From NCBI RefSeq assembly GCF_009765785.1, contig NZ_LMUT01000016.1, forward strand, positions 132,212-196,211: 64,000 nucleotides of DNA, read 5' to 3'. The DNA comes from Granulicella sp. L46 (lineage in GTDB: Bacteria; Acidobacteriota; Terriglobia; Terriglobales; Acidobacteriaceae). The notes beneath the pieces were generated by a model that saw nothing but the letters and a program-made list of their open reading frames with translations, had not been told where the DNA came from and did no database searches. Of this stretch, positions 7,279-23,144 are shown piece after piece. The position numbers were made by a program, and so were the translations under genes. Each line of letters begins with the position of its first letter. Position 1 is the first letter of the stretch.

Positions 7279-7308
7279 CAAGCGGTAGTGCTTCGGCGCT
7301 ACCGCTTG
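7279..7308. terminator. Bidirectional intrinsic terminator after galM
   Basis: Perfect 10-bp stem CAAGCGGTAG/CTACCGCTTG around a 10-base TTCG-containing loop, followed on the plus strand by CTTTCGTTT. It lies 19 bases after the galM stop and overlaps the last codons of the convergent outer-membrane protein gene, so it probably serves both. Confidence 0.7.
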
Positions 7309-8393
7309 CTTTCGTTTGGGAGTTTTTGTTCGACCTGGGACGTTACGGGTTCGGCGGGGCCTAGCAGGAGTTGAACGCCGACATACGCGATCCAGCTCGG
7401 CTGGCTGTTGTTGGCTGTGATGGTTTGGAAGCTGCGGCCCGCCATCAGCAATAAGTTGAATGTCTTGGAGTGATTGAGCGCCTGACGGCCCCCGAGGCCG
7501 AGCGTGGTTTCACGCTGTTTGGGGCCACCGGTGGCGAATTTCCCGACACCCTGGCCGGCAGGGAGCGTGTTGGCGTCCTGCTGGTCGTAGAGTTCAATGT
7601 AAGCTTCGGTGCGGTCCGTGAACTCGTGCCCTACGAGCAGACCGCGTCCCCAGCTTTGGGGTAACGCATGATTGCCGAAGTTGTAACCGACTTCGCCGTC
7701 GATACGGATGGGGCCGATGCGGCCATTAATTTCGATCGGAAGAAAAAAGTTTGGCCCGGGGGCGACGACACCGCGAGGGACAGAGCCGGTGGGATTGTCA
7801 AGAAAGAGCTGCGGGTACGTGGAGATGCTGAAGTTGACGATGGGCTCTGTGGAATCGTCGGCGCCGGGGGAATCGCCGGAGGCCGCGACGGGCTGGGGCT
7901 GATCGGATGGATGACGCCCGAAAGCTCCCAGCAGGCCGGTACCGAAGCGATTCTTGACCCAGGGATCGTTGGGATGATGTTCGTAGAAGCGCCACTTGAT
8001 ACCGAGCAGGCTTTGCCCGAGGCCGCCGATGACCTGTTCCTCAACGGCAGGCTGAGACGGTGAGGCTGGCTGGGCGCGCGTCTCTTCGATGGCGATGGGG
8101 ATTTCGTACTTGAGTTGGATGCGGTCGCCGAGACCGTAGTTGATGTCGAAGTCGGGCACCTGGTAGGCGCCTGCCTGGGGATTGCGATCGCCAATCCAGC
8201 CGAAGTTAATCTCCCAATGCTTGTTGCCGGGTGTTTCCGGATCGTCGGTGCGAAAGGGCGGGCCTCCTTGCGCATGCGCGATGGTCGCGAGCACAGGAAT
8301 GACGATGAGAAACAGAACCAATTGGCGAGGCCATTGACGTTGCTGTCTTTTTTGGAGAGGTAAGCTCAAGGCCTTGAGCCTATCGAGGTTCAT
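7299..8393 (-). CDS. Outer-membrane beta-barrel-like protein, function unknown
   Basis: 364 residues if translation starts at the ATG at 8393, which gives a basic N-terminus and a clean signal peptide (hydrophobic LVLFLIVIPVLATI, cleavage near AHAQ). A longer frame to 8468 adds 25 residues that hide the signal. The mature protein begins GGPPFRTDDPETPGNKHWEI and then has alternating beta-type segments (DFDINYGLGDRIQLKYEIPI, IRIDGEVGYNFG, TEAYIELYDQ), resembling the MetA-pathway-of-phenol-degradation/transporter-like barrel family. The element TACTAT ends six bases before the ATG, so the transcript may be leaderless. It is convergent with galM. No substrate can be named. Confidence 0.7.
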   Translation of the reverse strand: MNLDRLKALSLPLQKRQQRQWPRQLVLFLIVIPVLATIAHAQGGPPFRTDDPETPGNKHWEINFGWIGDRNPQAGAYQVPDFDINYGLGDRIQLKYEIPIAIEETRAQPASPSQPAVEEQVIGGLGQSLLGIKWRFYEHHPNDPWVKNRFGTGLLGAFGRHPSDQPQPVAASGDSPGADDSTEPIVNFSISTYPQLFLDNPTGSVPRGVVAPGPNFFLPIEINGRIGPIRIDGEVGYNFGNHALPQSWGRGLLVGHEFTDRTEAYIELYDQQDANTLPAGQGVGKFATGGPKQRETTLGLGGRQALNHSKTFNLLLMAGRSFQTITANNSQPSWIAYVGVQLLLGPAEPVTSQVEQKLPNESKR

Positions 8394-8480
8394 GTATCTA
8401 TAGTAAGCAATCCAGCTAAAGACAAGCTGAAGATCAGCGTCGGTGGGAGACAGTGCGCTGCTGGGCACATGAATTTTTGT

Positions 8481-9401
8481 TCAGACAGAATGGCTGGTGC
8501 GAGCGCGCCAGAGTGCGCCTGCGATGGGGTCGATGACGCCGTCGAGGGTGTGGAGCGTAGGAAACTCGGCGCGGACGGCGGCGATGAGGGCGTCGCGCAC
8601 GGGCTGAACTTTTTCCATGATGGAGCCGGTAAAGGCGAGGCTTGGAAGCGGGGCATCGGCGGAGGACGCGGCGTGAATGCGGTGAAGAACGACGCGGACA
8701 AGCCATGCTAAATCTTCGCCCTCGCGACGGAGGACTTCGGCTGCAACGACGTCACCCAGGTTAGCGCAGCGAAGGACGACTTCGGTGAGGCGAGAGAAGT
8801 CAGGGGCGGGGCGGGAGTTGGCGTACTCGACGAGGAGATCGAGAGAGGCGAGTTTCCAGAAGTCGAGGACGGCGTCGAGGAGGATGGTGGGGAGTTGTTC
8901 ATCGCGGGCGAGCAGCGCGGCGCGAAGGCCTTGGCGGCCGATCTTGTAACCGGAGCCCTGGTCGGCGAGCTCGGGCCCCCAGCCGCCGGCGGTGACGAGG
9001 GTTCCGTTGGGCATGCGGCCGGCTACGTTGGATCCCGTGCCGGCCATCGCGAGCACGCCGATGCCGCCTTGAAAGGCTGCGTCGAGCGCGATCTCGACAT
9101 CGCCTAGAAGGATGAGGTCGCCGGAGACGCGGGCGGCGAAGGCTTCGCGCAGCCAGTCGGTGACGAGCGGAACGGTTTCGCCAGCGGTGCCGATGCAGGT
9201 GCGGGTGATGGCTTGCGGCGAGATGCCGGTGAGGGTAGTGAGTTCCGAGAGCGCTTGATCGAGGTTGGTGGCTGCAGTGGTGGCGTCGGTGCGCATGCGC
9301 TTGATGGTGCCGGTGCGCACGCGCGCGAGTTCGCGGGTGTCGTCGGCGAGGAGGTAGTCGGTTTTGGTACCGCCGATATCAAGGGCAAGGAAGTACGGCA
9401 T
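8481..9401 (-). CDS. BadF/BadG/BcrA/BcrD-type sugar kinase, probable N-acetylglucosamine kinase
   Basis: 306 residues. The actin-like ATPase fold is visible: phosphate-1 motif LALDIGGTKTDYLLAD near the start, a phosphate-2 region with GVLAMAGTGSNVAGR, GGWGPELADQGSGYKIGRQ in the middle, and a C-terminal FTGSIMEKV adenosine segment. This family includes eukaryotic-type GlcNAc kinase and bacterial GlcNAc/glucosamine kinases. It follows the SIS-domain deaminase gene by 8 bases on the same strand, and the region carries nagA, GH18 and GH20. The likely reaction is GlcNAc + ATP to GlcNAc-6-P, the substrate of NagA. The family is firm; the substrate is inferred from context. Confidence 0.8.
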   Translation of the reverse strand: MPYFLALDIGGTKTDYLLADDTRELARVRTGTIKRMRTDATTAATNLDQALSELTTLTGISPQAITRTCIGTAGETVPLVTDWLREAFAARVSGDLILLGDVEIALDAAFQGGIGVLAMAGTGSNVAGRMPNGTLVTAGGWGPELADQGSGYKIGRQGLRAALLARDEQLPTILLDAVLDFWKLASLDLLVEYANSRPAPDFSRLTEVVLRCANLGDVVAAEVLRREGEDLAWLVRVVLHRIHAASSADAPLPSLAFTGSIMEKVQPVRDALIAAVRAEFPTLHTLDGVIDPIAGALWRARTSHSV

Positions 9402-9409
9402 GGGATGAG

Positions 9410-10546
9410 CTACTCCGCGAGCACGGCCTTGGTCAGATTCCTCGGATGGTCGACGTCGATGCCGTTGTTGATGGCCATCCAGTAGGAAAGAAGCTGCAAT
9501 GGAATCGTCTCACAGATCGCCAGCAGCGGCTCGCGCATCTCGGCGACATAGACCGTGTGATCGGCGAGCTCGGCTACCGTTTCATCGCCGGTGTTGGCGA
9601 TGGCGAGGATGCTCGCGTGCTGCTCGCGCATGTCGCGCATGAGCTGAACTACCTTCTCGTAACGCTGGATCGAGTCGGGATCGGAGTGGTCGACGGTGGC
9701 GATCATGACCAGCGGTGTGCCTTCGGCGACGAGCGCGTTGGGGCCGTGCTTGAGCTCACCGCTCGGATAGCCTTCGGCGTGAAGGTAGGCGGATTCTTTT
9801 AGCTTGAGGGCGCCTTCGCGGGCGATGGGATAGTGAATGCCGCGGCCGAGGAAGAGGAAGTTTTTGGCTTCGCGGTACTGGTAGGCGACGCCGTGCATGG
9901 CCTCCTCCCAGCCGCGGAGCTGGGCTTCGATCTGGTCGGGGAGTGCGGCCACTTCGGCAAGGCGCTGCTTGAGCTCGGCGGCGTCCATTAGGTCGCGCGA
10001 GATGGCGCTCATGAGGGCGAGGAGATAGAGATTGAGCAGTTGCGCGGTGAAGCTCTTGGTGGCAGGGATGGCGCGCTCGCGGCCGGCAACAGTGGGGAAG
10101 GAGACGGTGGCTTCGCGCTCCATGGTGGAGTCGTCGACGTTGGTGATAGCGAGGGTTTCGTTGCCGACGAGATTGGCCTTGCGCAGCGCGGCGAGGGTGT
10201 CGGCGGTTTCGCCGGATTGGGAGATCACCATGACGGCGGTGTTGGTGAGGGCCTTCTCCGAGCGGTAGGAATATTCGCTCGCGTACTCGACGTCGACGGG
10301 GATGCCGCTGAGGTCTTCGATGATGAGTTCGGCAAGCAGACCGGCGTGGCGGCTGGAGCCGCTGGCGGCGATCACGATCTTGTTCTGTACGCGCTTGAGC
10401 CATTCGAGGAGAGGGGCGCAGGTTTCGGAGCAGAGGCCGTCTTCATCGACGTAGCGGGCTACCGTCGCCTCAAGAGTGGAGGGCTGTTCGAAGATCTCGC
10501 GCAGCATCCAGTGAGCGAATGGGGAGGGTTTAGGCGATGTGGGCAC
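9410..10546 (-). CDS. nagB-II: SIS-domain glucosamine-6-phosphate deaminase (NagB-II type)
   Basis: 378 residues from a GTG at 10546 with GAAGGA ten bases upstream. The longer frame to 10606 would run through a 27-bp operator-like site, so I prefer the GTG. The protein equals the isomerase half of GlmS: FAHWMLREIFEQP at the N-terminus, two SIS domains (first with AASGSSRHAG and ISQSGETADTLAAL), and the C-terminal GIDVDHPRNLTKAVLAE. The glutamine amidotransferase domain of GlmS is absent, which is the hallmark of NagB-II/AgaS deaminases that convert GlcN-6-P to fructose-6-P and ammonia. First gene of a deaminase-kinase pair; the DeoR-type regulator is divergent. Confidence 0.82.
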   Translation of the reverse strand: MPTSPKPSPFAHWMLREIFEQPSTLEATVARYVDEDGLCSETCAPLLEWLKRVQNKIVIAASGSSRHAGLLAELIIEDLSGIPVDVEYASEYSYRSEKALTNTAVMVISQSGETADTLAALRKANLVGNETLAITNVDDSTMEREATVSFPTVAGRERAIPATKSFTAQLLNLYLLALMSAISRDLMDAAELKQRLAEVAALPDQIEAQLRGWEEAMHGVAYQYREAKNFLFLGRGIHYPIAREGALKLKESAYLHAEGYPSGELKHGPNALVAEGTPLVMIATVDHSDPDSIQRYEKVVQLMRDMREQHASILAIANTGDETVAELADHTVYVAEMREPLLAICETIPLQLLSYWMAINNGIDVDHPRNLTKAVLAE

Positions 10547-10569: not shown

Positions 10570-10596
10570 TTGATCGTTTAAGCTCTATACGATCAG
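10570..10596. promoter_or_regulatory. Putative nag operator, copy 1
   Basis: Perfect inverted repeat TGATCGT-N11-ACGATCA (10571-10577 and 10589-10595). It lies 24 bases before the preferred deaminase start and 87 bases before the divergent DeoR-type gene. A 27-bp site at 22105-22131 matches it at 20 of 27 positions without gaps. A DeoR-type target is likely but unproven. Confidence 0.6.
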
Positions 10597-10682
10597 AATA
10601 GGGCACGTTTCAGGAAGCTGCAAGAAAAATATTTAGTTAACGGCAAGCATTGTGGCGCTACACTCATCTAGATTCAAATCGT

Positions 10683-11468
10683 ATGTCAACCAAGACAGAT
10701 GTTCGCGGCGATCGTATTATGAAGGCCCTGCTTCGGGCGGGGGATATCTCCGTTCAGGAGCTGGTGGACCAGGTGGGGACGTCGGCTCCGAGCATTCGGC
10801 GAGACCTGGCGCGACTGGAAAAACGTGGTCTCGTGTTGCGTACGCATGGTGGCGCGACGCTGGTGGAACCGCTGTTGTATGAGCCATTTCGGCACGATAC
10901 TTCGTTCCAGGCCAGAGAGCTGCGGTCGGCGGATGCGAAGCGGCGGATCGGCGTGGCGGCTAGCGAATTAATTGGCGAGAGCGAGACGATTGGGCTGACG
11001 GCGGGAACGACGACGACGCAGATTGGTCGGTCGCTGCGGCATCGGCGCGGGATTTCGGTGATCACCAATGCGGTCAATATCGGGATGGAGCTTTGCAATC
11101 AACCGGCGATCAAGACCATGCTGACGGGCGGAACGCTGGCCTGGGCTTGGACCTTCGCGCTGGCAGGGCAGCCGGCCTTGAATTTTCTCCGCGATGTGTA
11201 TCTGGATAAAGCGTTTATCAGTATCACGGGGTTCGATATGGAGCGCGGAATCACGACGCTGGAATCGGAAGAGGCGGCGGTATCGCTGGCGTTCATTCGG
11301 AATGCGAAGAAAGTGATCGTGGTGGCCGATAGCAAGAAGATGGGGCAGGTGAGTCCTGCACTCATCTGCCCCATATCGGCGATCCATTGTCTGGTTACAG
11401 ATTCGGATCTGCCGAAGTCGATCCATGAAGAGCTCACGGCGCGGGGTATCGAGGTCATTCTCGCGTAG
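10683..11468 (+). CDS. DeoR-family transcriptional regulator, probable nag regulator
   Basis: 261 residues from the ATG at 10683; an upstream TTG at 10650 is less likely. N-terminal DeoR winged helix (about 8-60: VRGDRIMKALLRAGDISVQE, then SAPSIRRDLARLEKRGLVLRTHGGA). The DeoRC sugar-phosphate sensor domain follows (about 78-250), with GLTAGTTTTQIGR, ISVITNAVNI, LTGGTL and ADSKKMGQ. DeoR proteins usually sense a phosphosugar; here GlcNAc-6-P or GlcN-6-P would fit. It is divergent from the deaminase-kinase operon and separated from it by the palindrome at 10570-10596. It ends 14 bases before the convergent GH20 gene. Confidence 0.86.
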   Translation: MSTKTDVRGDRIMKALLRAGDISVQELVDQVGTSAPSIRRDLARLEKRGLVLRTHGGATLVEPLLYEPFRHDTSFQARELRSADAKRRIGVAASELIGESETIGLTAGTTTTQIGRSLRHRRGISVITNAVNIGMELCNQPAIKTMLTGGTLAWAWTFALAGQPALNFLRDVYLDKAFISITGFDMERGITTLESEEAAVSLAFIRNAKKVIVVADSKKMGQVSPALICPISAIHCLVTDSDLPKSIHEELTARGIEVILA

Positions 11469-11482
11469 CCGCTGCGGTGGCC

Positions 11483-13642
11483 CTATTTGGGTGGTGAAAC
11501 CGGTGCGGGAATGCCTATCTGGTTTGCGGGCGGAAGGGTTCGCGTCACGTAGAAGTTGTCGATGAGGGTGTCGATGTCCTGGCCGCGCTTCTGCCAGAGT
11601 TGCGTTTGCAGGTCGTAGCGGACGAGGACGTTGTCGATCCAGTAGGGACGATTCTCAGCCATCCAGCTTTCGCGATAGAGGTTCTTGAGGAGCGAGAACC
11701 CGTCGCGCAGATCCTGGCAGCGGCCGTTCATACTGCTGATGTTGTAGAGCAGGTTTTCGGTGGTGGAATCTTTCTTGCGATCATGCTGCAGGTCGTAGGC
11801 CTGAGCGTAGAGGTCGCGCATTTCGTCGGAGAGCTGGAATTTCAGGCCGATGAAATCAATGCGGCGGGCGCCTAGTTCCATGGCACGTAGCGAATCTTTT
11901 TCGCGGAGAGACGGATCGGTGGCGAGCGCGGTTTCGATCAGCTCGATGGCTCGCTCGGAATGGAGGCGCGCGGCGGAGAGGTTGGGTCGGAGCTTATCGG
12001 CCTTGGCGAGGCCGGCGGGGCTCCAGGGGTCGAGCCAGAAAGCTTCGTCGCTGACGTCGATGAGATCTTCGGCGGCGATGATCTCGGCCATGGCCTGGTT
12101 GATGCGGCCTGTTTTATCGCCATAGAAGCTCGGGCCGAATGATGCTTCGTAAGGCGCGGCCTCGGCTTTGACGGACTGCCACCCGGCGGCCGCGCCGAAG
12201 AGCGTGCCAAACCAATCCTGGTTATAGAGGCCTTCGCCGTCGTCGTTCCAAATGGTGGTGAGTTCGCCGGTGCTGCCGAGACGCTGGCCGGCAGCGATAA
12301 AGCCGGAGATGTTGTCGAGTGCGGTTTTTTCGACGGGGTAGACCTGGCGCCAGTTGGAATCGCCGGGGGCAACCCAGGTCTCGAGGCCTTGTTTCTTGAA
12401 GGGAAGAATGTCGTTGTCGTAGCTGTCTTTGTGGCCGTAAACCCAGGGGACGGCGATCATGTCCTTAGGGATTCCGAGGATGGCGGAGGGGTCGGAGTCG
12501 CCGATGTCGCCCCAGAAGATGAGGCGGCGGTGAAGCGGGGCGAGCACCGTATGGATAGAGCTGAGGAAGTCGGCGTACGCGGGGCCGAGACCGCGCTTGT
12601 CGACTTCGGGTTTGGTGCGACCGAGGCCGAGGTCGAAGGTTTCGTCTGCGCCGATGTGCAGGAACGGGCTGGGGAAGTCGGCGGCAATCTGGGTGAACCA
12701 GCTCACGATGAGCGGGAGCGAGTTGGGCTGGCCGGGGGCGATGACGTTGCCGTGCGGCGTCTCGGCTACGTCGGCATACTTTTCGTATTCGAGAACGTGG
12801 TGAACGTGGCCAAAGGCTTCCTGCTCAGGAACGATCATGATGTGGAGAGGCGTGGCGAAGGCTACGAGCTCTTTGGCCTCATCGCGGGTGAGGGCTCCGC
12901 CGGGGGGCGCGGCGAGAGGGTCGGCGGAATACTCGAGATTGCTCTCGAAGTAGGGCGAGTAGAGATTGACCTTGTGCGCGGCGAAGACTTCAAGCTGATG
13001 CTTCTGGAAGGCGAGCGTGGGGAAGGGGCCGCGGGAGAGGTCGTCGTGCTGCCCTCGATACTTCATTGCGGGCCAGTCGCGGATGGTGGCGGACCATATC
13101 TGTGGGCCGTTGGGGGAGGATTCCACGAGCTGCTTGATGGTCTGCGCGCCGTAGAAGATGCCGGCGGCGGTCTGGCCGATGATGTCGACGGTCTCGCCTG
13201 CCGTGGAGTTTTTTTGCGAGACGAGGACGTAGCCTTCGTCGTGCATGGGAGCGTCGAAGGCGAGATGGCTTGCGGATAGGAGCCGGCGGGCTTGCGAGGA
13301 GTCCGCGCGGAGGAGATTTACGGTGAGATCGGCGTTGCCCGCGGCTGAGGATAGGAGGATGCCGCTTTGGGTGAGGGATTGGGTGAGGTTTTGCGCGGCG
13401 AAGAGGTCGTCCGGATCGCTGCCGGGAACGAGTACAGAAACGGAATGCACAGAAACCAATGCGCCGGGCTGGATCTCCTTTGGCTGCGGAGACATGGCGG
13501 GAGCAGCAGGTGTGACGGATTGCGCCTGGATAACGGGAGTTGACACGAAAAGCAGGCAGAAGACACCGGCCAGAGACCAACTCGACCGGAAGCGGCAGAA
13601 GCGAAATGTCGGTTGGATGGAATCGATCATGTAAGTGGACAT
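11483..13642 (-). CDS. Secreted GH20 beta-N-acetylhexosaminidase
   Basis: About 719 residues from the ATG at 13642; an ATG at 13630 is an alternative, since AGGAG sits one base before the first and 13 bases before the second. A signal peptide ends near PVIQAQS. A GH20b-type N-terminal domain (about 50-165: PQPKEIQPG, then GYVLVSQ and AAGIFYGAQTIKQLV) is followed by the GH20 catalytic barrel, with the Asp-Glu pair in HIGADETFDLG near residue 330. The Asp-Glu pair distinguishes GH20 from GH84. A long helical C-terminus (about 500-719) resembles tails of acidobacterial homologues. The enzyme would release GlcNAc from chito-oligosaccharides in the periplasm. It is divergent from nagA. Confidence 0.85.
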   Translation of the reverse strand: MSTYMIDSIQPTFRFCRFRSSWSLAGVFCLLFVSTPVIQAQSVTPAAPAMSPQPKEIQPGALVSVHSVSVLVPGSDPDDLFAAQNLTQSLTQSGILLSSAAGNADLTVNLLRADSSQARRLLSASHLAFDAPMHDEGYVLVSQKNSTAGETVDIIGQTAAGIFYGAQTIKQLVESSPNGPQIWSATIRDWPAMKYRGQHDDLSRGPFPTLAFQKHQLEVFAAHKVNLYSPYFESNLEYSADPLAAPPGGALTRDEAKELVAFATPLHIMIVPEQEAFGHVHHVLEYEKYADVAETPHGNVIAPGQPNSLPLIVSWFTQIAADFPSPFLHIGADETFDLGLGRTKPEVDKRGLGPAYADFLSSIHTVLAPLHRRLIFWGDIGDSDPSAILGIPKDMIAVPWVYGHKDSYDNDILPFKKQGLETWVAPGDSNWRQVYPVEKTALDNISGFIAAGQRLGSTGELTTIWNDDGEGLYNQDWFGTLFGAAAGWQSVKAEAAPYEASFGPSFYGDKTGRINQAMAEIIAAEDLIDVSDEAFWLDPWSPAGLAKADKLRPNLSAARLHSERAIELIETALATDPSLREKDSLRAMELGARRIDFIGLKFQLSDEMRDLYAQAYDLQHDRKKDSTTENLLYNISSMNGRCQDLRDGFSLLKNLYRESWMAENRPYWIDNVLVRYDLQTQLWQKRGQDIDTLIDNFYVTRTLPPANQIGIPAPVSPPK

Positions 13643-13936
13643 TCTCCTGCCAAAGTGATTGTTTTCTATTGAAGTGCGCAAACTTCTGAGCTATCGTGTA
13701 CTACAAGAACACACTCTGTCTGGTGTGGGCAAGAACTTTTATTCGCAGCGTCCATGGCGGAAGCTGCGACGGCCCCTTCTGCGTGCTGTAACGAGGGTAG
13801 CTTTTGATGTGCCGTCGAAGGCACCTCGGCGGTGTGCATCACATGATTCGAGCATAGCTTCGTGATAGCACAGCTGATACGAAGAAGGCGATCGACCGGG
13901 CTTGAGCATTGCAAGTTGTTAGAAGAATGGAAATCG
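13643..13936. other. GH20/nagA divergent intergenic region
   Basis: No gene is supported in these 294 bases. GTGATTGTTT at 13655-13664 followed by GCGCA at 13676-13680 matches the left half of the nag operator seen at 10570 and 22105 (9 of 10), but the right half is poor, so it is at best a degenerate site. Confidence 0.3.
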
Positions 13937-15073
13937 ATGCTGACGACAATAACTGCACGTAGATTGATCACCGACACGGGAGAGATTGAATATCCGGTGG
14001 TATCGGTGGAGGATGGCCATATCGTTCGCATCGAGTCGGGAGATGCGAATGGCTCGAAGGAAACGCTTACCGCAGCCTTCTTCGATATTCATGTGCATGG
14101 AGCGCGATCGTTCGACTTCATGGCGTCGGACTCGTCGGGTATTGCGGAGGTAGGCCGGTTCCTGGTGACGCGTGGCGTAGCCCATTATTTACCGACGACG
14201 GTGACAGCGCCACTGGAGCTGACGCTCAAGGCGCTGGAACGGCTGGCCGATGTGATCGAACATCCGTCCCACGGCCGATCCGGCGCTCCTATCGCGGTTC
14301 CGGTTGGGATCCATCTGGAAGGACCGTTTGTGTCGCACGGAAAACGTGGCGTCCATCCCGAGGTCAGCATTCGTGAACCGAACATTGAGTTGTTCGATCG
14401 CTTCCAGGCGGCGGCGAGAGGGCACATTCGTTTGATGACGCTGGCGCCGGAACTTCCGCATGCGCTTGAACTGATTCAGCACGCGACCGCTGCCGGTGTG
14501 CGCGTAACGATGGGCCATAGCACGGCGACATCCGAGGAGACGCTGGCGTCAATCGCGGCGGGGGCAACGAGTTCCACACATTTGTTCAACGCGATGCGGC
14601 CCATTGATCATCGTGAGCCGGGAATTGTGGGAACCATCTTAGATCGCGATGATATTTATGCTGAGGCGATCTGCGACGGAGTGCATGTGGATCCAGCCAT
14701 CATTCGGCTGTGGCTGAAGATCAAGGGGGAAGAGCGGGCGATCCTTGTGACCGATGGTATGTCGGCGACGGGCGTGCCGGATGGAACGTATACGCTTGGA
14801 GATTTTGAGGTCGTCGTGAAAGATGGTGTCTGCCTGTCGGGCGAGACTCTGGCTGGGAGCGTGTTGACGATGGACCAGGCCGTTGCGAACGTGCAGAAAT
14901 TCACTGGAACGTCGCTGGGAGCAGCCGTTCGGCTCGCTTCGCGTAATCCTGCGCGCATGATGGGAATGTCGCAGCTGTCGACGATGGCGCCGGGCACGCC
15001 TGCGAACTTCAACGTGTTCGACGAGGCTGGCGATCACACGGGTACCATCTTCCGCGGACGGTTGGTGGAGTAG
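13937..15073 (+). CDS. nagA: N-acetylglucosamine-6-phosphate deacetylase
   Basis: 378 residues from the ATG at 13937, normal for the family (about 380); a longer frame from 13862 adds an Arg-rich stretch unlike NagA. Amidohydrolase-fold metal sites are visible: FFDIHVHGARSFD (His52, His54), HLEGPFVSHGKRGVHP (metal Glu), MGHSTATSEE, STHLFNAMRP, and the catalytic Asp in ILVTDGMSATGVPDG. It removes acetate from GlcNAc-6-P to give GlcN-6-P, between the kinase (8481) and the deaminase (9410). It is divergent from the GH20 gene and is followed by a strong terminator at 15099-15120. Confidence 0.92.
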   Translation: MLTTITARRLITDTGEIEYPVVSVEDGHIVRIESGDANGSKETLTAAFFDIHVHGARSFDFMASDSSGIAEVGRFLVTRGVAHYLPTTVTAPLELTLKALERLADVIEHPSHGRSGAPIAVPVGIHLEGPFVSHGKRGVHPEVSIREPNIELFDRFQAAARGHIRLMTLAPELPHALELIQHATAAGVRVTMGHSTATSEETLASIAAGATSSTHLFNAMRPIDHREPGIVGTILDRDDIYAEAICDGVHVDPAIIRLWLKIKGEERAILVTDGMSATGVPDGTYTLGDFEVVVKDGVCLSGETLAGSVLTMDQAVANVQKFTGTSLGAAVRLASRNPARMMGMSQLSTMAPGTPANFNVFDEAGDHTGTIFRGRLVE

Positions 15074-15098
15074 CGGTTGCGAATTGCTGGTGAAGAAA

Positions 15099-15120
15099 AG
15101 CCCTCTCGTTGGAGAGGGCT
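15099..15120. terminator. Intrinsic terminator between nagA and GH18
   Basis: Perfect 9-bp stem AGCCCTCTC/GAGAGGGCT with a GTTG loop, preceded by AAAA and followed by CTTTCG. It lies 26 bases after the nagA stop and 30 bases from the convergent GH18 stop, so it can act in both directions. Confidence 0.75.
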
Positions 15121-15149
15121 CTTTCGTGCGTTCGTCCCTATAGTTTGAG

Positions 15150-16196
15150 CTAGCGTTTGGCTGGGATCGCGTCCCATATCGCTGGGTCTTCTTCGCCGAG
15201 CACCCAGGCGCAGACGCCCTGCAGGTTTGACTTCTTCGCGAGGTCGAAGCGATCCATGAAGGCGCGCTTGTCGGTGTAGAAGAACCACTCGCGCATCTGA
15301 TCGCGATTGATGAAGAACCAGGGAGTGTGCTCCTCCTCATCCCACTGGGTCTTCCCGCCGTAGGTGTCACGGAGATAGATTGTGTCGGCATAGGAGATAT
15401 AGTCAGCGGTGGGATGCGGGATCCGGTCCTTACCCTCGAAGCCAGGCTCGCCGGTGTACCAGTGATAACCATAGAACGCGATGCCGAGCGAGAGCTTGCT
15501 CTTGGGCACGGCCTTGAGCGCGTAGTCGAGGTTCTGATTCGTCCAGACCCAGCCGTCGACGGGACCGGGTTCAGTCCAGCGAGTGTTCTGATCGTAGGTC
15601 ATCAGGCAGATGAGGTCGACGGCATCCGCGAGAGCTTTCAGGTCGTAGCCTCCGCGCCACTCTTGAAACATCCATGTGCTGAAGGCAGTCTCGCCAGGAT
15701 GTCCGGGCGCGTTGGGAACAACGTCGATCTGAACTTGCAGGTGTTGCTGGTGGAGGGCGTCAGCGATTTTCTTTACGAGCGCGGAGAGGCCATCGCGATC
15801 GGTCCACATGACATCTTCGATGTCGAGATTTGCGCCGTCGTAGCCGTTCTCTTTGCACTCGCGAAGGAGGGAAGCGATCAGCGCGTCCTGAGCTTTTGTG
15901 TCGTTGAAGAGTGCATGCGCCTTGTCGGGATTGAAAAGCGCGAAGAGCGGGATGATGGTGAGATGCGCGTCCTTGGCGGCCTTCAGGACAACCGGCTGCG
16001 GCTCGCCGCTAACGAAGCCGTTCTGGTCGATCTGATACCAGGTCGGAGAGATGATGTCGATCTTATCTTTGTGCGCCATAAAGGATGCGACGGAGGTGGT
16101 CCCGTTACTCATCCAGAACTCTGTTTTCTGAGCGTGTGCAGGTTGGATCACGCTCATGCAGATCACTACGAATAACGCGTAAACGGAATGTTTCAT
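15150..16196 (-). CDS. Secreted GH18-family glycosidase (chitinase-like)
   Basis: 348 residues from the ATG at 16196, which places a signal peptide at the N-terminus (MKHSVYALFVVICMSVIQPA, cleavage near AHAQ). The GH18 catalytic motif DGxxxDxE is intact as DGANLDIE (Asp120, Asp125, Glu127). Other GH18 barrel strands are visible: FYGYHWYTGEPGFE and GVCAWVLGEEDPAIWD near the end. The layout resembles YaaH-like/spore-germination GH18 enzymes as well as small chitinases. With GH20 and nagA nearby, hydrolysis of GlcNAc-containing polymers is likely. A hairpin at 16256-16280 separates it from the upstream receptor gene on the same strand. Confidence 0.85.
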   Translation of the reverse strand: MKHSVYALFVVICMSVIQPAHAQKTEFWMSNGTTSVASFMAHKDKIDIISPTWYQIDQNGFVSGEPQPVVLKAAKDAHLTIIPLFALFNPDKAHALFNDTKAQDALIASLLRECKENGYDGANLDIEDVMWTDRDGLSALVKKIADALHQQHLQVQIDVVPNAPGHPGETAFSTWMFQEWRGGYDLKALADAVDLICLMTYDQNTRWTEPGPVDGWVWTNQNLDYALKAVPKSKLSLGIAFYGYHWYTGEPGFEGKDRIPHPTADYISYADTIYLRDTYGGKTQWDEEEHTPWFFINRDQMREWFFYTDKRAFMDRFDLAKKSNLQGVCAWVLGEEDPAIWDAIPAKR

Positions 16197-16255
16197 TGAA
16201 ACCTCAATTATCCAAATGTACCCGAAGAGAAATCTCTGGTTGGCGTTAAGCACAA

Positions 16256-16280
16256 ATGCCACCCCGAGCTGGGGTGGCAT
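16256..16280 (-). terminator. Hairpin after TonB-dependent receptor gene
   Basis: Perfect 10-bp stem ATGCCACCCC/GGGGTGGCAT around a 5-base loop, followed on the minus strand by TTGTGCTT. It sits between the receptor stop and the GH18 start and may terminate or attenuate transcription; the T-run is weak. Confidence 0.5.
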
Positions 16281-16299
16281 CAATGGTTAGGGTTGATGG

Positions 16300-19200
16300 T
16301 TAGAAGCTGAGTCTGAGTGCGAACTCAACTTGACGCCCAGGGTTCGATCCATCGACGAGGCCGAAGGTGCCAACCGTGCCCGCACCGCCGCCGAGTGGAC
16401 CGGTTGTGCGAACAGCATTGCAAGCTCCGCAGGAGCTGTATGCTCCGCCGTAGGCTGCCGGTACGCTGAAGATCGGCGTGTTGGTCAGGTTGATGAACTG
16501 TGCAGAGAAGGCGAGGTTGAACGTATCGGTAAAGTACACCATCTTGGTGATATTCAGGTCTGCCGTCTTAAGGCCCGGTCCACGAAGGGCGCCATTCTGA
16601 CAGTTTCCGAACGTTCCACCATCGGCTACATCAGCGACTTCAGTTACCGACTTAGGATTGAGATTGGTTCTGCCAATGCTTCCGCCGATCTGCACGGTCT
16701 GCATGGGTTGATTGTTTAACATGCCTTGCACGCAATCAGGACGTGCCATGTAAGAGCCGGTGAGTGTCGATGCAGAGTTGGGATTTTGGTCTGCGAAGTA
16801 GGCGCCGGCAAAAGGAGTGATACCGAAGCCGGAATGCATCTGGGTGTCGGCAGCAATCTTCCAGCCACCGATCACGGCATTGACGGGCCTGCTGACGTTG
16901 GTGCCAATCAGCTTTCCGCGACCGAAGGGCAAGTCATACACGCCGTAGGCTACGAAATACTGGGCGACGTCTATAGTGCAGCGGCCGTAGTCGGCCTTTG
17001 GGTCGTACTCGTTCTGGAAGAAGTTCTGCCCGGCCTCCGTCTGCGATTCGCCGGCACCTTCTTCATCACCATACGATCCGAAGTAACCGAGGGAGTTGGC
17101 CTGGCACTTCGACCAGGTATAGCTTACCGTGAGATCCAGGCCGTGGTAATTCTTCTGAGCAAACATGAGTTCCAATGCGTTATAGCGGGAGATGCCGTCG
17201 GACGCGTTGTAACGCGCCTGAGCTCCAGCGTTCACGATCGGCTGCATGTAAGGACCGGGAACGACCTCGCCCGCGGAGTTGATCTGCTTCTGGTTGTAGA
17301 GGTAGATGTCGGACATGTGGTCGTCTTTGTTACCGACCCAGCCGATGGTGATGGACGAATTCGCGGCGAACTGCTGCTGAACAGCGAGGCTGAACTGCTG
17401 ATCGACAGCGGGTCGCAGATTCGGATTGGTAGCGTGCACCTGTCCACTGGCAAAGCACTCGGATGCAAACTCCTGCAAGAGTGCCGGAGTGCAGGCAGCC
17501 GATTCGAAGGGCAGGTAGCCTTCATCCAGTGTGGTGGTTGGATACAAGAGCGACGCGCCTGAAATGTTTTGCTCATTATGCAGTTCGACGTTGGGAGGAT
17601 TGACGACCGCCATATTGTTGACGCCGTTGCCTTCCATGTAGGTGGAGATATCGTACGCGCCACGAACGACCATCTTCGGAATCCAGCTCGGCTGCCATGC
17701 AAAGCCGACGCGCGGCTGCCAGTTACCGATACCGGTATAGGTGTTGTAGTTGGTTCCGATCTGTGGAGTTCCGGTGAGGAGATCGAAGTTGACGTTGTTG
17801 TTGTGGTCCTTGTCGCCCCGGTCGGTGGTGAGCTCGTAGCGAAGACCGAGGTTGAGGGTCAGGTTGGGAGAAACCGTCCAATTGTCCTGCACGAAGCCTG
17901 CGAACAGACTGTTGCGAAGGTGGAAGTTGAAGGGTTCGCCCTGTTGAACGCCCTGGGGCAAGCCGAGCAGGAAGTCGGCGAACGCGCTACCGGAGATGGC
18001 CGTCTGGGTGCCCGGGACGAGCCCGTTGGCAGTGTATTGACCGTTGAAGCTGAACGCACCCGAAGCGCCCTGGTTGCCGGCGTAGACGTCGTTCATGATG
18101 TAGTGATAGTACTCAAACCCGCCGTGAATGGAATGCTTGCCATGTACCCAGGTAAGCGAATCCTCCGCTTCGATGGTGGTGTCGTGGAAGATCTCGACTC
18201 CGTTTTGGCTGCCCACGTTGCCGTAACCGAAACTCATCAAAGGCAAGATCGTTCCCTGAACGCCGGGGAGTCCAAACACCTCAGGTAAATTCTGGTCGGT
18301 TGCGTTGGTGTAGATCTGATCGTTGGCCGGGAAGATCTGCATACCTGCACGAACTTCGTTTACCAGCGATGGGGTGATCTGGCGATCCCAGTTGGCGACG
18401 AAGTTCTTGAGCGGATATTCGCGCGTAAGATTCGGCGTCAGGACGTTGGTTCCATTGCTGCTGGTGTTGATCGTGTACGCCTGGGTGTAACGGCCGTTGA
18501 TGTGATCCTTCGGGCTGGCTTGCCAGTCGATCTTGAGATCACCCTGGTAGCTGTGCACGTAGCCGTTGGTGTAGTAGGTCGGCTGCTCGAATTGCTCCTT
18601 GAAGAGCGAGGACGAGACCATGTTTTGCGCTACGGTGCTGTTGATCGGCACCAGGTTGTTGAGGAAGGGCTGACGTCCACCGATAGGGGCGATCTGGCCG
18701 GCGTTGGGACCAGTGAGATAGACCGGGCTGTAGAGTTGCAGGGCCTGGTTGGAGCAGACGCCGTCGACAAAGGAAGCGCCCTGGCTAGTACAAAGGGTGC
18801 TCATATCGCCGGTAAGAAAGGCTGACGGAATGACCTGGTTATTTTGCGCTGTTTTGGGAGTGTTGTTAATCGCAGAGTTGAAGTCAGCGAAGAAGAACAA
18901 TTTGTCCTTGACGATCGGTCCACCTACAGCGGCGCCAAAGTTGTTCCACTGCAGAACCGGGCGAGGATTTCCTGGTCCGGTAAAGTAGCCACCGTCACCG
19001 TTGGTGTCAGGGATGAGGAGGAAGGCCTGGGCCTTGTCCTGCCAGCTATTGGCATTGAGAACGGTGTTGCGGAAATACTCGTAGACGGTTCCATGAAAGT
19101 GGTTGGTGCCGGACTTTGTGGTCTCGACGAGTACACCGCCGATGTAGTTGCCGTAATCGGCCGGCGCATTGCTTGTGATGAGTTGGAAGTTTCCGATGGC

Positions 19201-19872
19201 ATCCGGTGCGGCCACATAGGCTGCGTCGTTGTTGTCGGGCTGGTTGATGTCCATGCCGTCGAGGCTGGCGTTGTTGTCCTGCTCACGCGCGCCGTTCACA
19301 TAGGGACGACCGGTACCAAAGGTGTTCTGCGAGGATGCGAAGGCGAAGATGTTGGGGCTGATCGCGCCCGGAACAAGGAGGGTCAGTTGGTTGATGTTAC
19401 GCGAGGCCATCGGGAGATTTCCGACGGTGTTGGCGTCAAGGACGGTGCTCACTTCCGTTGAAACGGTCTGGAGGAGGGGAGGAGCTGCAGTCACATCAAC
19501 CACTGCATTGACTCCGCCGACCTGCAACTTGAAGTTGATTTCAGCGACCTGATTGACGGACAGCGAGAAGGAGTTGCGAACCTCTTTGCTGAAGCCGGAA
19601 GCCTCGACGGTGATAACAACGTTTCCCTCGGGGATTTGGGGGAAGTTGTACAGACCCGCGCCGCTGGTCTTGGTGGTCCATACAGTGCCACGATCGGTAT
19701 CGCGGACGGTGACGAGTGCATTCGGAATGGCGCCGCCGCTGGGGTCAGTTACGGTTCCAGTAATAGAGCCAGCGGCTTGCTGGGCCCACGCAGGCGTTGA
19801 CGCTCCAAATACGAGCGTGCCCAAACAGATGGCTATCACCATCATTAACGTTGAGTAACATTTCAGCTTCAC
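16300..19872 (-). CDS. TonB-dependent receptor with carboxypeptidase-regulatory-like domain
   Basis: 1190 residues from a GTG at 19872 with AAGGAG six to seven bases upstream; the frame extends 12 codons further, but without such a site. The signal peptide ends at AWAQQ. The N-terminal CarboxypepD_reg-like domain (about 30-115: AGSITGTVTDPSGGAIPNAL) is followed by a plug (VVDVTAAPPLLQT, then NFVANWDRQ-type barrel repeats) and a long barrel ending with the outer-membrane Phe signature EFALRLSF. This is the typical acidobacterial family of long TonB-dependent transporters. Placement between GH18 and the NagP-type permease suggests uptake of chito-oligosaccharides across the outer membrane; that substrate is inferred. 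Confidence 0.88.
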   Translation of the reverse strand: MKLKCYSTLMMVIAICLGTLVFGASTPAWAQQAAGSITGTVTDPSGGAIPNALVTVRDTDRGTVWTTKTSGAGLYNFPQIPEGNVVITVEASGFSKEVRNSFSLSVNQVAEINFKLQVGGVNAVVDVTAAPPLLQTVSTEVSTVLDANTVGNLPMASRNINQLTLLVPGAISPNIFAFASSQNTFGTGRPYVNGAREQDNNASLDGMDINQPDNNDAAYVAAPDAIGNFQLITSNAPADYGNYIGGVLVETTKSGTNHFHGTVYEYFRNTVLNANSWQDKAQAFLLIPDTNGDGGYFTGPGNPRPVLQWNNFGAAVGGPIVKDKLFFFADFNSAINNTPKTAQNNQVIPSAFLTGDMSTLCTSQGASFVDGVCSNQALQLYSPVYLTGPNAGQIAPIGGRQPFLNNLVPINSTVAQNMVSSSLFKEQFEQPTYYTNGYVHSYQGDLKIDWQASPKDHINGRYTQAYTINTSSNGTNVLTPNLTREYPLKNFVANWDRQITPSLVNEVRAGMQIFPANDQIYTNATDQNLPEVFGLPGVQGTILPLMSFGYGNVGSQNGVEIFHDTTIEAEDSLTWVHGKHSIHGGFEYYHYIMNDVYAGNQGASGAFSFNGQYTANGLVPGTQTAISGSAFADFLLGLPQGVQQGEPFNFHLRNSLFAGFVQDNWTVSPNLTLNLGLRYELTTDRGDKDHNNNVNFDLLTGTPQIGTNYNTYTGIGNWQPRVGFAWQPSWIPKMVVRGAYDISTYMEGNGVNNMAVVNPPNVELHNEQNISGASLLYPTTTLDEGYLPFESAACTPALLQEFASECFASGQVHATNPNLRPAVDQQFSLAVQQQFAANSSITIGWVGNKDDHMSDIYLYNQKQINSAGEVVPGPYMQPIVNAGAQARYNASDGISRYNALELMFAQKNYHGLDLTVSYTWSKCQANSLGYFGSYGDEEGAGESQTEAGQNFFQNEYDPKADYGRCTIDVAQYFVAYGVYDLPFGRGKLIGTNVSRPVNAVIGGWKIAADTQMHSGFGITPFAGAYFADQNPNSASTLTGSYMARPDCVQGMLNNQPMQTVQIGGSIGRTNLNPKSVTEVADVADGGTFGNCQNGALRGPGLKTADLNITKMVYFTDTFNLAFSAQFINLTNTPIFSVPAAYGGAYSSCGACNAVRTTGPLGGGAGTVGTFGLVDGSNPGRQVEFALRLSF

Positions 19873-19908
19873 TGGGATCTCCTTATGCAATACAAATTCG
19901 CGTGTCAT

Positions 19909-20419
19909 GTCTGCTCTCTCTTGAAGCCTTGTTTGCGAACCTTGTGCGATACGTCACACATGAGTTAATGGCCCGTGACTCAAACTGCTGCTCTAGGGTT
20001 CTTCGAACACTATTTTGTTCAAATGGGGCCGAGTTGCTCAAAAGTGTGACGATTTAGTGAAATCTACCTTGTCTCGATGTGGTTTGCAACAACGAAATTG
20101 CGGATAGGGCAAAAAAACTGCTAGTCAAGGGCGGAATAGCGATTTTTGGGCACAATTCGAGCAGATTTCTAGCCGGATCAGGGGGAAGCGACCGGCGAAA
20201 TCGGCGTTTGGTGCCCAAGTGATCGCGGGGTCTCGGGCCTTTGGATCAGAACTGAGCAGCCGGATGTCAGGTATGATTGGCCGCGCACGCCTTCCGGTTC
20301 GCTTGGGCGAACTCATTGTCTTCTCGTCCAAGGGCGGAAACCAGGCCGAATTGCCCCCCAACAGAATCGCGGAGCAAACCACTCAATTGCAGAGGGCACA
20401 ATTTCACTAGCATGGTTGA
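19909..20419. other. Upstream region of the TonB-dependent receptor gene
   Basis: No credible gene in this stretch. The leader nearest the receptor gene is AT-rich, and one tentative minus-strand promoter lies at 20101-20128. No copy of the nag operator was found here. Nothing else recognised. Confidence 0.5.
20101..20128 (-). promoter_or_regulatory. Tentative promoter for the TonB-dependent receptor
   Basis: On the minus strand, TTGACT (20128-20123), 16 bases, then TATCCG (20106-20101). The -35 is good and the -10 weak. It would give a leader of about 220 bases. The flanking TTGACTAGCA also occurs at the araB promoter, perhaps by chance. Confidence 0.3.
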
Positions 20420-20695
20420 ACGAAGCGATGGGCATCGCGGTCGGAGTATGCTTCGCGTTCGCCGGATGAATGGTGCGAACTCGGATGGGCGCAGCTATCA
20501 GCCAAACGTTTTGAGCTGCGACTACGATGCATCGATCGGGTCGATGGGCAGCCTGTTTCTGCCGGGCGCATGGTGTACTCCGGCAATAACGACGTTACGG
20601 TGATGGGTCTCGATGGTGGTCCGACTGCTTCGCTCGGAGCGGACGATCGCCCAACGCATCTCGATCCCAAGCGGAAGCCGGGACCGACGTCATAA
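20420..20695 (+). pseudogene. Start-less open frame, possible gene remnant
   Basis: A 91-codon frame opens after a TGA at 20417 and ends at TAA 20693-20695, six bases from the convergent permease stop. It has no ATG/GTG near its 5' end and no upstream ribosome site. The translation is protein-like in its second half (RFELRLRCIDRVDGQPVSA, then GRMVYSGNNDVTVMGLDGG), but I do not recognise it. It may be the 3' remnant of a lost gene or merely non-coding sequence. Confidence 0.25.
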
Positions 20696-20700
20696 GTTAA

Positions 20701-21990
20701 CTAGATCTCAACCGGCGGCATGTAGTTGGGTAGGGAATCGAAGCGGGGCTGGCGAATCTTGTAACCGCTGGTGGCGAAGAAGACTAGGTAGGCGTAGCAG
20801 AGCAGCACCATCACGAAGCTGTGCTGGTAACCGAGCTTGTCGGCGAGGAAGCCTTGAAGGACAGGCACGATGGCGCCTCCGACCACCATGGTGATCAGGA
20901 TGCCAGAACCCTGGCTTGTGAATTTGCCGAGGCCCTTGACCGCGAGCGGAAAGATGCAGGGCCACATGACAGAGTTGAAAAGGCCGCAGCTGACAATAGC
21001 CCACTTGGCGACAGAGCCATGGCCGAAGATGGTGATGACAACCATGAGGGCGGCTACGCTGGCTACGGCGAAGAGCGCGTGCTGGGCTTTGACCTTGAGC
21101 AGGGCTACGGAGCCGATGATTCGGCCGGCCATGGCACCTCCCCAATAGAAAGAGACGAAGGTGGCGGCCGCGGCGTGGGTGTAACCGCCCATGGAGGGTT
21201 GGCCGAGAAAGTTGATGAGGATGCTGCCGATGGCGACTTCGGAACCGACTGAGGAGAAGATGGCGAGTGCGCCGAAGCGCAAGTGTGTGAAGCTCCAGGC
21301 TCCGCCATCGGCTTTAGTGGTGACGGCTTTGGAGTTGGTTTCGATCAGCGAGGGTAGGGGAACAGCGGCGGTGATGAGGGCGACCAGCAGGGCGAAGCTT
21401 CCGAGGATGACATAGGGCATGCGCACGGAGTGGGCGAGCTGCGCGGTGGTGGCTCCGGCTGCGATGAAAATAAAGATGGCGCCGACGCGCGGAGCGATGG
21501 TCGTTGCGGAGGAGTTGAAGATGCCGCAGAGATTGATGCGCCAGGCGCCCTTATCGGGTGGACCGAGGACACTGACATAAGGATTGACCGCAACTTGCAG
21601 GAGAGCGAGTCCGCTGCCGACGACGAAGAGCGCGAAGAGGAATATAGGATAGGAGATCGCGATGGAGGCTGGAACGAACAGGAAGAGGCCCGCCGACATG
21701 ACACAAAGGGCGGTGATGATGCTGGGCTTGTACCCGATGCGGCCGACGATCCAGCCGCAGGGCACCGACATGACGAAGTAGGCGCCGAAAAAGCAAAGGT
21801 CGACCAGCAGGGCGAGCACGTTCGTGAGGTGGAAGAGTTCTTTGAAGTGCGGGATGAGGATGTCGTTGAGCGCGGTGATGAAGCCGATGCTGAAGTAGAG
21901 AGCGAGCATGAGGACCATCGGCAGGATGTAACTTCCCGACGCTTCGTTGCGGATGGTTGTGCCTGCATCTCCGGTGGTTCCAACAGCCAT
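20701..21990 (-). CDS. nagP: NagP-type sugar MFS transporter (FHS family)
   Basis: 429 residues with about 12 hydrophobic segments; ATG preceded by GGGAG at 6-7 bases. It resembles the fucose/glucose-galactose/GlcNAc proton symporter family: the first helix pair carries ALYFSIGFITALNDILIPHF, and the loop after helices 2-3 reads FFGAYFVMSVPCGWIVGRIGYKP. Helix 4-5 has LALLQVAVNPYVSVLGP, a family signature. It probably imports GlcNAc across the inner membrane without phosphorylation, so the cytoplasmic kinase at 8481 is needed. An operator-like site matching that of the deaminase operon lies 115 bases upstream (22105-22131). The GlcNAc substrate is inferred from context. Confidence 0.8.
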   Translation of the reverse strand: MAVGTTGDAGTTIRNEASGSYILPMVLMLALYFSIGFITALNDILIPHFKELFHLTNVLALLVDLCFFGAYFVMSVPCGWIVGRIGYKPSIITALCVMSAGLFLFVPASIAISYPIFLFALFVVGSGLALLQVAVNPYVSVLGPPDKGAWRINLCGIFNSSATTIAPRVGAIFIFIAAGATTAQLAHSVRMPYVILGSFALLVALITAAVPLPSLIETNSKAVTTKADGGAWSFTHLRFGALAIFSSVGSEVAIGSILINFLGQPSMGGYTHAAAATFVSFYWGGAMAGRIIGSVALLKVKAQHALFAVASVAALMVVITIFGHGSVAKWAIVSCGLFNSVMWPCIFPLAVKGLGKFTSQGSGILITMVVGGAIVPVLQGFLADKLGYQHSFVMVLLCYAYLVFFATSGYKIRQPRFDSLPNYMPPVEI

Positions 21991-22104
21991 GCGTGTCTCC
22001 CGTGTATCGTGCTTGAAGAGTTTAATGCTCTAAATCCTGATACATATTCGTCATTCGGTTATCTCTTGGTAATCATTCTCAAAGAGGTAACGCCATGACC
22101 CAAT

Positions 22105-22131
22105 TTGATTGTTTGGCGCCTATACGCTCAG
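22105..22131. promoter_or_regulatory. Putative nag operator, copy 2
   Basis: Ungapped 27-bp match (20 identical positions) to the site at 10570-10596; both share TTGAT, GTTT, CTATACG and TCAG at the same spacing. The palindrome is imperfect here (TGATTGT versus ACGCTCA around GGCGCC). It lies in the nagP/cutC divergent region, 115 bases from nagP and 279 from cutC. Confidence 0.55.
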
Positions 22132-22409
22132 TTAGAGTGACGATATCACACAGAATATAGGTCAGGGGGATCTCTCCAATCCGGTTCGCCGAGCAGGTCT
22201 GCGGTCCCATGGGCTGATCGAAGAGTGCAATGCTCCCGTGCCTGGACCTCGTTATCACGACGTCGATCGTACGGCTTCCTCATTGGAGGCGCGGTGAGGT
22301 CGTGCGTCGTCAAACGACTTCCTATCGATGCTGACTAGGTACAATCGAGTCGTTGAAGTGACTCAACATGTAAGTTGTTTTCGTTGATGCCGGAAGCAGG
22401 TCAGGCCAA
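22132..22409. other. cutC upstream region
   Basis: No gene is supported. GAGTC-N8-GACTC (22347-22364) just before cutC is a short inverted repeat of uncertain meaning. No convincing promoter hexamers were identified. Confidence 0.3.
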
Positions 22410-23144
22410 ATGCAAGAGATGATCTTTGAACTCTGCGCCGAGACGATCGACGCGTGCCTCGCGGCAAGAGAGGGCGGAGCGCACCGAATCGAACTATGTT
22501 CTGGACTCAGCGAGGGTGGAATTACCCCGAGTCACGGACTGATTCTTGATGCGGTCGAGCGTAGCGGGCTTCCCGTGCATGTACTCGTGCGGCCGCGTGG
22601 TGGCAGCTTCGTGTACGCGGCGTCCGAAATCGATGTTATGCGGCGAGACATTCTGCACATCAAGGAACTTGGTGCCGCTGGTGCGGTCTTCGGAATTCTG
22701 TGGCCGGATGGGCGCGTCGACGTTGAGGCCACGCGTGCGCTGGTCCAGCTCGCACGACCGCTGAAGGTCACCTTTCATCGGGCCTTCGATGCGACGCCAT
22801 CGCTGCCCCAAGCTCTCGAAGACGTGATCACCACTGGAGCCGATCGACTTTTAACTTCAGGGGGGCAGCCGAACGTCGTTGCCGGATCCGCAGCGCTCGC
22901 AGAGTTGGTTCGGCTGGCAGGCGATCGGATTGAAATTGCAATTGGAGGCGGTTTGCGGTTAGAGAATGCTGCCTCGTTGGCGCGGGCCACCCACGCCAAA
23001 CACTTTCACGGATCGCTCCGTCGAAGGCTGAAGCAAACTGCTTCGCCAGCGGAAATGGCCGGCGAGTCGCTTTCGATGGGACCTCAATATGTCGTGGATG
23101 CGGATGACGTTCGAGCTCTTATCGAACGGCTCGCGAAGGATTGA
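22410..23144 (+). CDS. cutC: CutC-family TIM-barrel protein
   Basis: 244 residues. Family signatures run through the protein: ELCAETIDACLAAREGGAHR, IELCSGLSEGGITPS, VHVLVRPRGGSFVYA, FGILWPDGRVDVEATRALV, VTFHRAFDATP, DRLLTSGGQPNV and AIGGGLRLENA. CutC was named for copper homeostasis in E. coli, but its copper role has been questioned and the fold is that of an enzyme. Here it is divergent from the NagP-type permease, with a putative nag operator between them, which suggests a link to amino-sugar metabolism. It is convergent with nuoN, and a hairpin overlaps its stop codon. Confidence 0.88.
   Translation: MQEMIFELCAETIDACLAAREGGAHRIELCSGLSEGGITPSHGLILDAVERSGLPVHVLVRPRGGSFVYAASEIDVMRRDILHIKELGAAGAVFGILWPDGRVDVEATRALVQLARPLKVTFHRAFDATPSLPQALEDVITTGADRLLTSGGQPNVVAGSAALAELVRLAGDRIEIAIGGGLRLENAASLARATHAKHFHGSLRRRLKQTASPAEMAGESLSMGPQYVVDADDVRALIERLAKD

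Follow-up and report, generated by a model that had tools for sequence, protein, structure and literature searches.

AgaR of Escherichia coli is a DeoR-family repressor of N-acetylgalactosamine and galactosamine catabolism, and according to the accessible part of PMC4694137 it regulates its own gene and binds palindromes before amino-sugar genes including agaS. Regulators of the N-acetylglucosamine (GlcNAc) pathway are known from other families. In the accessible text of PMC2996990, the GlcNAc pathway of Shewanella comprises nagP, nagB-II and nagK, and different DNA motifs are predicted for the LacI-family NagR of Shewanella and the ROK-family NagC of E. coli. In Bacillus, nagP and nagAB are repressed by NagR/YvoA, a protein of the GntR/HutC family, as stated in the accessible part of PMC6141813. 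Here we analyzed a stretch of 64,000 nucleotides from Granulicella sp. L46 (contig NZ_LMUT01000016.1, positions 132,212 to 196,211), called the window below and numbered from its first letter. The window contains a gene set that is read as a GlcNAc/chitin utilisation cluster, and palindromic sites are located between its genes. A DeoR-family protein is encoded within the cluster at 10683–11468 (DeoR below). Its pathway is the same as that of NagR and NagC, and the gene content nagP, nagB-II and nagK is like that of Shewanella, but the DeoR is unrelated in family to the three regulators, and its predicted motif differs from those of Shewanella NagR and E. coli NagC. The DeoR resembles AgaR in family and in gene context, that is, in the palindromes before amino-sugar genes. 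The best NCBIfam model is the AgaR equivalog NF040755, but the score is 186.6 bits against a cut-off of 260, and the window genes (nagB-II, nagK, nagA, nagP and GH20) point to GlcNAc and chitin; thus, the protein is AgaR-like and not AgaR. According to the sequence analyses, the sites are very probably operators of this protein, which would repress GlcNAc/chitin catabolism locally in Granulicella and other Acidobacteriaceae related to it. Among the titles and abstract openings listed by searches of the open-access literature, none appears to describe a DeoR-type nag regulon in Acidobacteria.

Operator-like sites in the nag cluster

The initial annotation described a 27-bp sequence shared by two nag loci, 10570–10596 and 22105–22131. 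The two sites indeed match at 20 of 27 positions without gaps, with the common blocks TTGAT, GTTT, CTATACG and TCAG, and the first one contains an exact TGATCGT-N11-ACGATCA inverted repeat at 10571–10595, as had been read. The whole genome (5,479,411 bases, 39 contigs) was scanned with the shared pattern. Allowing up to three mismatches, only these two sites were detected, and none of 100 shuffled windows contained a match, a comparison in which the pattern itself was derived from both sites. A fairer matrix was constructed from the deoR-upstream sites of 17 relatives, with the window excluded. The three highest scores in the window are found at 10571 (35.0 bits), 22106 (23.1 bits) and 13656 (17.8 bits), and the next position reaches 6.7 bits. 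In 60 simulated first-order Markov windows (3,838,560 positions), no position reached 17.8 bits; the largest score was 17.1 bits and the mean maximum was 10.3 bits.

The third site had been taken for a degenerate left half-site at 13655–13664. As it ranks third in the window and lies above all 60 simulated windows, it is a whole, weaker site: the half-site belongs to a 25-bp site of full length (13656–13680), conserved in relatives, of which it forms the left portion. The predicted operator is a 25-bp inverted repeat of roughly the form TGATYRTWT-N7-AWAYRATCA. The symmetric pattern TGAKYRTWT-N7-AWAYRMTCA, with at most two mismatches, has four matches in the genome. The sites in the nag cluster account for three, so that one motif is common to several nag transcription units, and the sole other match is located inside argF. 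The same pattern read backwards, used as a control, gave one place. The match in argF (C39:202623; the gene was named by eye from its translation) was discounted as coding sequence. A weak palindrome before the TonB-dependent receptor gene is common to G000, G014 and G018, and the sites upstream of the receptor orthologs in G014 and G018 score 13.8 and 14.6 bits. The window site at 20016 is kept as a possible operator only, because its 6.7 bits are within the noise of the simulated windows and its one support is these ortholog sites.

Conservation and co-occurrence with the DeoR protein

We searched 61 genomes for the DeoR; a match was detected in 36 of them, and 23 upstream regions were read. 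The palindrome is present before deoR in 18 of these 23 regions, which are all 18 orthologs in the genus with at least 59% identity, the own genome included. The five regions free of the palindrome belong to G029 and to four more distant proteins of 42–48% identity. Seventeen of the 18 sites have at most two mismatches to the core, and the site of G009 has four, which is at background by that count. Using leave-one-out matrices, the 18 sites score 16.0–35.3 bits, against a runner-up of at most 8.0 bits per 300 bp; the G009 site scores 18.5 bits, against a runner-up of 8.0 bits.

The motif was also sought upstream of the nag genes of close relatives, where its absence would have spoken against the initial annotation; the outcome did not refute it. 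In addition to the 18 deoR genes, a GH20/nagA site was sought in the 11 relatives in which GH20 or nagA adjoins deoR, as far as the stretches were available, and one of at least 13 bits was found in nine of them. In the eight closest relatives the score is at least 13.5 bits, in G014 it is 16.2 bits, and in G019, where GH20 was not found at the locus, the site stands directly before nagA. Three relatives combine DeoR with a nagP ortholog that is 70% identical or more, and the site at nagP is present in only one of them (G019). The nagP of G004, which lacks DeoR, has no site within 400 bp. Among the 28 genomes of the genus, sites with at most one mismatch occur in 15 of the 18 with a DeoR ortholog and in one of the 10 without it (Fisher p 0.00027, among related genomes). 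The lone match in a genome without DeoR (G012) was discounted, because it lies inside the argF coding sequence.

The co-occurrence is clearest at nagB. We collected 26 nagB genes with identities of 55% or more and sought sites within 400 bp. Each of the 16 nagB genes adjoining DeoR has a site that scores 24 bits or more; the matrix itself was trained on these sites, and the leave-one-out scores given above are the fair measure. In nine of the other 10, which have no intact DeoR next door, the best score is at most 8.1 bits. No DeoR ortholog was found in seven of these nine genomes, and in G009 and G018 it is located elsewhere. Thus, the motif at nagB is kept with the regulator and is absent without it, the exception being G012 (L226). 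There, a 29.9-bit nagB operator is kept, although only about the last 20 residues of deoR remain, in a fragmented assembly of 74% completeness; the remnant may be an assembly effect or a recent loss. In the case of G004 (L213), only the first 14 codons of deoR are left, and they now lie beside nagA. The promoter of nagB is preserved in G004, and the operator has decayed, with one spacer base lost and one half-site changed. This natural deletion of deoR is the strongest individual piece of evidence for linking the operator to DeoR, and G012 is the case against it. As the genomes are related, the counts are not independent trials.

The sites might instead serve a different regulator of the nag genes, for instance a further DeoR paralog or a protein of the GntR or LacI type, with the DeoR as a mere neighbour. 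Paralogous DeoR clades do exist, and one of them stands next to cutC in related genomes. In G013, a match at C32:89520 lies beside the sister DeoR locus and not at nag genes as far as the locus was read; near this paralog, a gene read by eye as GH92-like is preceded by an operator-like site. The G012 operator, retained with a truncated deoR, points in the same direction. In the own genome, however, no DeoR of the paralogous clade was detected; the two other matches, 37 and 40% identical, are on other contigs. The nagB site follows the DeoR in 16 of 16 genes adjoining it and occurs in one of 10 without an intact adjoining copy. In G001 and G022 (L221 and L222), the neighbour of the nagB-II gene (74% identical) is another member of the DeoR family (41%), and the operator is missing, which is likely a swap of regulators. 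Another regulator is thus very unlikely, and the DeoR at 10683–11468 is preferred.

The matrix was then applied to a scan of species genomes that yielded 71 loci, all from Acidobacteriota apart from one actinobacterium, among them the genera Granulicella, Edaphobacter, Terriglobus, Occallatibacter, Acidicapsa, Terracidiphilus, Acidipila and Silvibacterium. We scanned 69 loci, without L208, whose gene is partial and abuts a contig end, and without the actinobacterial L209. All loci contain deoR because they were selected for it, and genes were labelled by similarity to the window proteins. Thirteen loci come from genomes used in the matrix; the other 56 comprise 929,397 bases, some of them closely alike. 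In these 56 loci, 57 sites of at least 16 bits were detected, distributed over 40 loci. The reversed matrix gave no site, and 100 column-permuted matrices gave 0.37 sites on average and two at most. All 69 loci together contain 82 such sites, and by hand count 72 of them are no more than 450 bp away from where nagB, deoR, GH20, nagA, nagP, GH18, cutC or a TonB receptor gene starts. The neighbours of the remaining sites include PNGase A-family and sugar-transporter genes, and GH92 and a second GH20 likewise stand beside sites. A site of at least 12 bits is found directly before deoR, within 350 bp, in 44 of the 69 loci. In L184, L201 and L202, PNGase A-family proteins (PF12222) are encoded near operator-like sites, so that N-glycan release may also belong to the regulon.

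Promoters and the proposed repression

The nagB promoters of 15 loci, the window included, were aligned. They share a conserved cttg..g block followed by TA.t., which abuts the operator, and the start codon is located 19–34 bases past the operator in all 15. The promoter in the window reads TTGCAG-N17-TATTCT. In 11 of the 15 loci, an in-frame stop closes the longer deaminase frame upstream of the operator. The initial annotation had placed the deaminase start at GTG 10546 and not at 10606; both features of the alignment agree with this choice, and GTG 10606 is very unlikely as a start because it lies upstream of the inferred −10 element. The same alignment bears on the idea that the similarity reflects chance, or that some other constraint on coding or promoter sequence has conserved it. 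The 27 bp do overlap the longest possible frame of the deaminase, and argF shows that coding sequence can mimic the motif. Against this, the frames through the operator are closed in those 11 loci, the palindrome recurs before unrelated genes, and the permuted matrices yield almost nothing. Such an origin is extremely improbable, and the sites are better read as operators. In the case of nagP, an alignment of two genomes shows TGRTATYGT nine bases before the operator.

The existence, conservation and placement of the sites and their co-occurrence with DeoR are results at the level of sequence; binding and repression by DeoR, its effector and its possible autoregulation are inferred. The proposal of the initial annotation that the DeoR at 10683 has a regulon is supported by the same features. 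The predicted regulon comprises nagB–nagK, GH20/nagA and nagP, and perhaps the TonB receptor gene. As operator 1 directly follows the nagB promoter, the transcription start of nagB would fall inside the operator, and the bound repressor would block initiation of nagB–nagK. The operator at nagP would be placed about as at nagB relative to the inferred −10 element, and the weaker site at 13656 would serve GH20/nagA. A likely −10 element of deoR, TACACT, was read by eye at about 10659–10664. It is some 65 bp from operator 1, and for this reason autoregulation of deoR is possible only. When GlcNAc enters the cell, GlcNAc-6-phosphate or glucosamine-6-phosphate would bind to the sensor domain and release DeoR from the DNA; these effectors are suggested by the pathway and by the DeoRC domain. 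The release would raise GlcNAc uptake and breakdown together.

DeoR could also be an activator, or a dual activator and repressor, at these sites, since the sign of regulation cannot come from sequence alone. The nagB site, however, is downstream of the inferred −10 element, which is the usual position for repression. In G004, moreover, deoR and the operator are lost, yet nagB, nagK, nagA, nagP and the nagB promoter are kept. Activation is highly improbable on these grounds, and DeoR is treated here as a putative repressor.

Several observations weigh against the assignment of the sites to DeoR, in addition to G012. G029, whose DeoR is 62% identical, has an altered palindrome (GAGCAA-N11-TTGCTC) before deoR with the same spacing. 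At GH20, nothing above 11 bits was found in G009 and only 11.1 bits in G015, and the nagP genes of G015 and G021, in which DeoR is present, have no site within 400 bp. Motif-like sites were observed in G006 (C1:978220-978244), a genome with DeoR, with no explained link to nag genes, and in G043 of another genus (L060, 7288–7312), with no nag gene found nearby. In the scan of 69 loci, a site of at least 16 bits stands directly before deoR in only 36 loci and is absent from the whole available stretch in 16, and seven of the 82 sites are inside open reading frames as drawn. A mechanical sigma-70 scan found neither of the inferred promoters, and therefore the nagB and nagP promoters rest on conservation.

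Gene content and the CutC protein

The features are listed in Table 1. In the DeoR protein, PF08220 (N-terminal DeoR helix-turn-helix) and PF00455 (C-terminal DeoRC sensor) both exceed their cut-offs, and the closest relatives are from Granulicella and Acidobacteria genomes. A search of solved structures gave only remote kin, 7l6l (deoxyribose operon repressor, E 1.3e-8) and 5kvr (E 0.00025). The SIS protein scores 130.3 bits with the NagB-II model NF046059, below the cut-off of 430, and 360.4 bits against a cut-off of 381 with a GlmS-type model, in the C-terminal part of the model only. It is presumed to be a divergent deaminase according to family and context. AgaS is a SIS protein too. Downstream of nagK, the window encodes a 389-residue protein (7299–8468, minus strand) that matches none of the Pfam and NCBIfam models at E 0.001, and a stretch 70% identical to it likewise follows nagK in G004.

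Table 1. Predicted sites, promoter elements and genes of the nag cluster, in window positions
Feature	Position	Strand	Description	Score or basis
Operator 1	10571–10595	.	perfect TGATCGT-N11-ACGATCA palindrome, nagB-II/deoR intergenic	35.0 bits, relatives' matrix
Operator 2	22106–22130	.	nagP/cutC intergenic	23.1 bits, relatives' matrix
Operator 3	13656–13680	.	degenerate full-length TGATTGT-N11-GTGCGCA, GH20/nagA intergenic, kept in relatives	17.8 bits
Possible weak operator 4	20016–20040	.	5' of TonB-dependent receptor gene	6.7 bits, inside noise
Inferred nagB −35	10618–10623	−	TTGCAG	conservation
Inferred nagB −10	10595–10600	−	TATTCT, directly before operator 1	conservation
Inferred extended −10 of nagP promoter	22140–22148	−	TGATATCGT	two-genome alignment
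DeoR-family regulator	10683–11468	+	261 residues; HTH_DeoR and DeoRC sensor	best NCBIfam model AgaR, below cut-off
SIS-domain protein, presumed glucosamine-6-phosphate deaminase (NagB-II type)	9410–10546	−	start GTG 10546	
BadF-type kinase, NagK-like	8481–9401	−	downstream of nagB-II	
GH20 beta-hexosaminidase family protein	11483–13642	−	start ATG 13642	start read by eye
NagA, GlcNAc-6-phosphate deacetylase	13937–15073	+		exceeds TIGR00221 cut-off
GH18 family protein, chitinase-like	15150–16283	−		family scan
TonB-dependent receptor-like outer-membrane protein	16300–19908	−		family scan
NagP-like MFS sugar transporter (gluP/fucP/NagP type)	20701–21990	−		over gluP subfamily cut-off, under NagP cut-off
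CutC-family protein	22410–23144	+	divergent from nagP; 279 bp from operator 2	

CutC proteins are named for copper, but their function is disputed, the human homolog included. Among the 69 DeoR loci, CutC is encoded in 24, in 15 of them within 1 kb of deoR. A site scoring 13 bits or more lies in the 300 bp upstream of only eight of the 24 cutC genes. Eight others are on the same strand downstream of a site-bearing gene and are assumed to form operons with it; this gene is the TonB receptor gene in L184, L192, L198, L199, L201 and L202, and nagB in L158 and L160. The cutC gene is next to DeoR and under its putative operator in the window and in L166, L169, L171, L180, L188, L191, L195 and L200. 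A sister DeoR clade (47–52% identical) adjoins cutC in G002, G003, G007, G009, G013, G018, G023 and G035, and sister DeoR/cutC loci were observed as L059, L111, L113, L117, L120, L122, L123, L138 and L030. A constant association of CutC with the operator was rejected, on the eight of 24 genes given above and on 15 of 29 CutC matches that were read in other contexts, where the best site within the available stretch is at most 12.9 bits (L132 and L136 lie outside this set). The 25 CutC proteins compared have many Arg, Glu, Asp and His residues in common, and one invariant Cys.

CutC is thus often located beside DeoR or the sister DeoR under the same putative operator, together with GH20, GH92, PNGase A, TonB receptors and nag genes. 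Whether it functions in the catabolism of amino sugars or N-glycans is close to an even question, and we propose this role only tentatively. The copper sensitivity of E. coli cutC mutants is wholly ascribed, in the accessible part of PMC6538781, to the small RNA MicL encoded at the locus. For the CutC protein itself, the regulon context suggests carbohydrate use as the place to seek a role.

Control of an amino-sugar pathway by a DeoR-family protein is already known from AgaR, and the predicted nag regulon of Acidobacteriaceae is a well-supported gene switch of an ordinary kind. The matrix predicts regulon members in many genomes, and the analysis places CutC in a carbohydrate regulon. Acidobacteriaceae are common soil bacteria. 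For this family, the analysis provides a concrete candidate regulon for GlcNAc and chitin under a DeoR-family regulator, where some bacteria use regulators of the ROK, LacI or GntR families.

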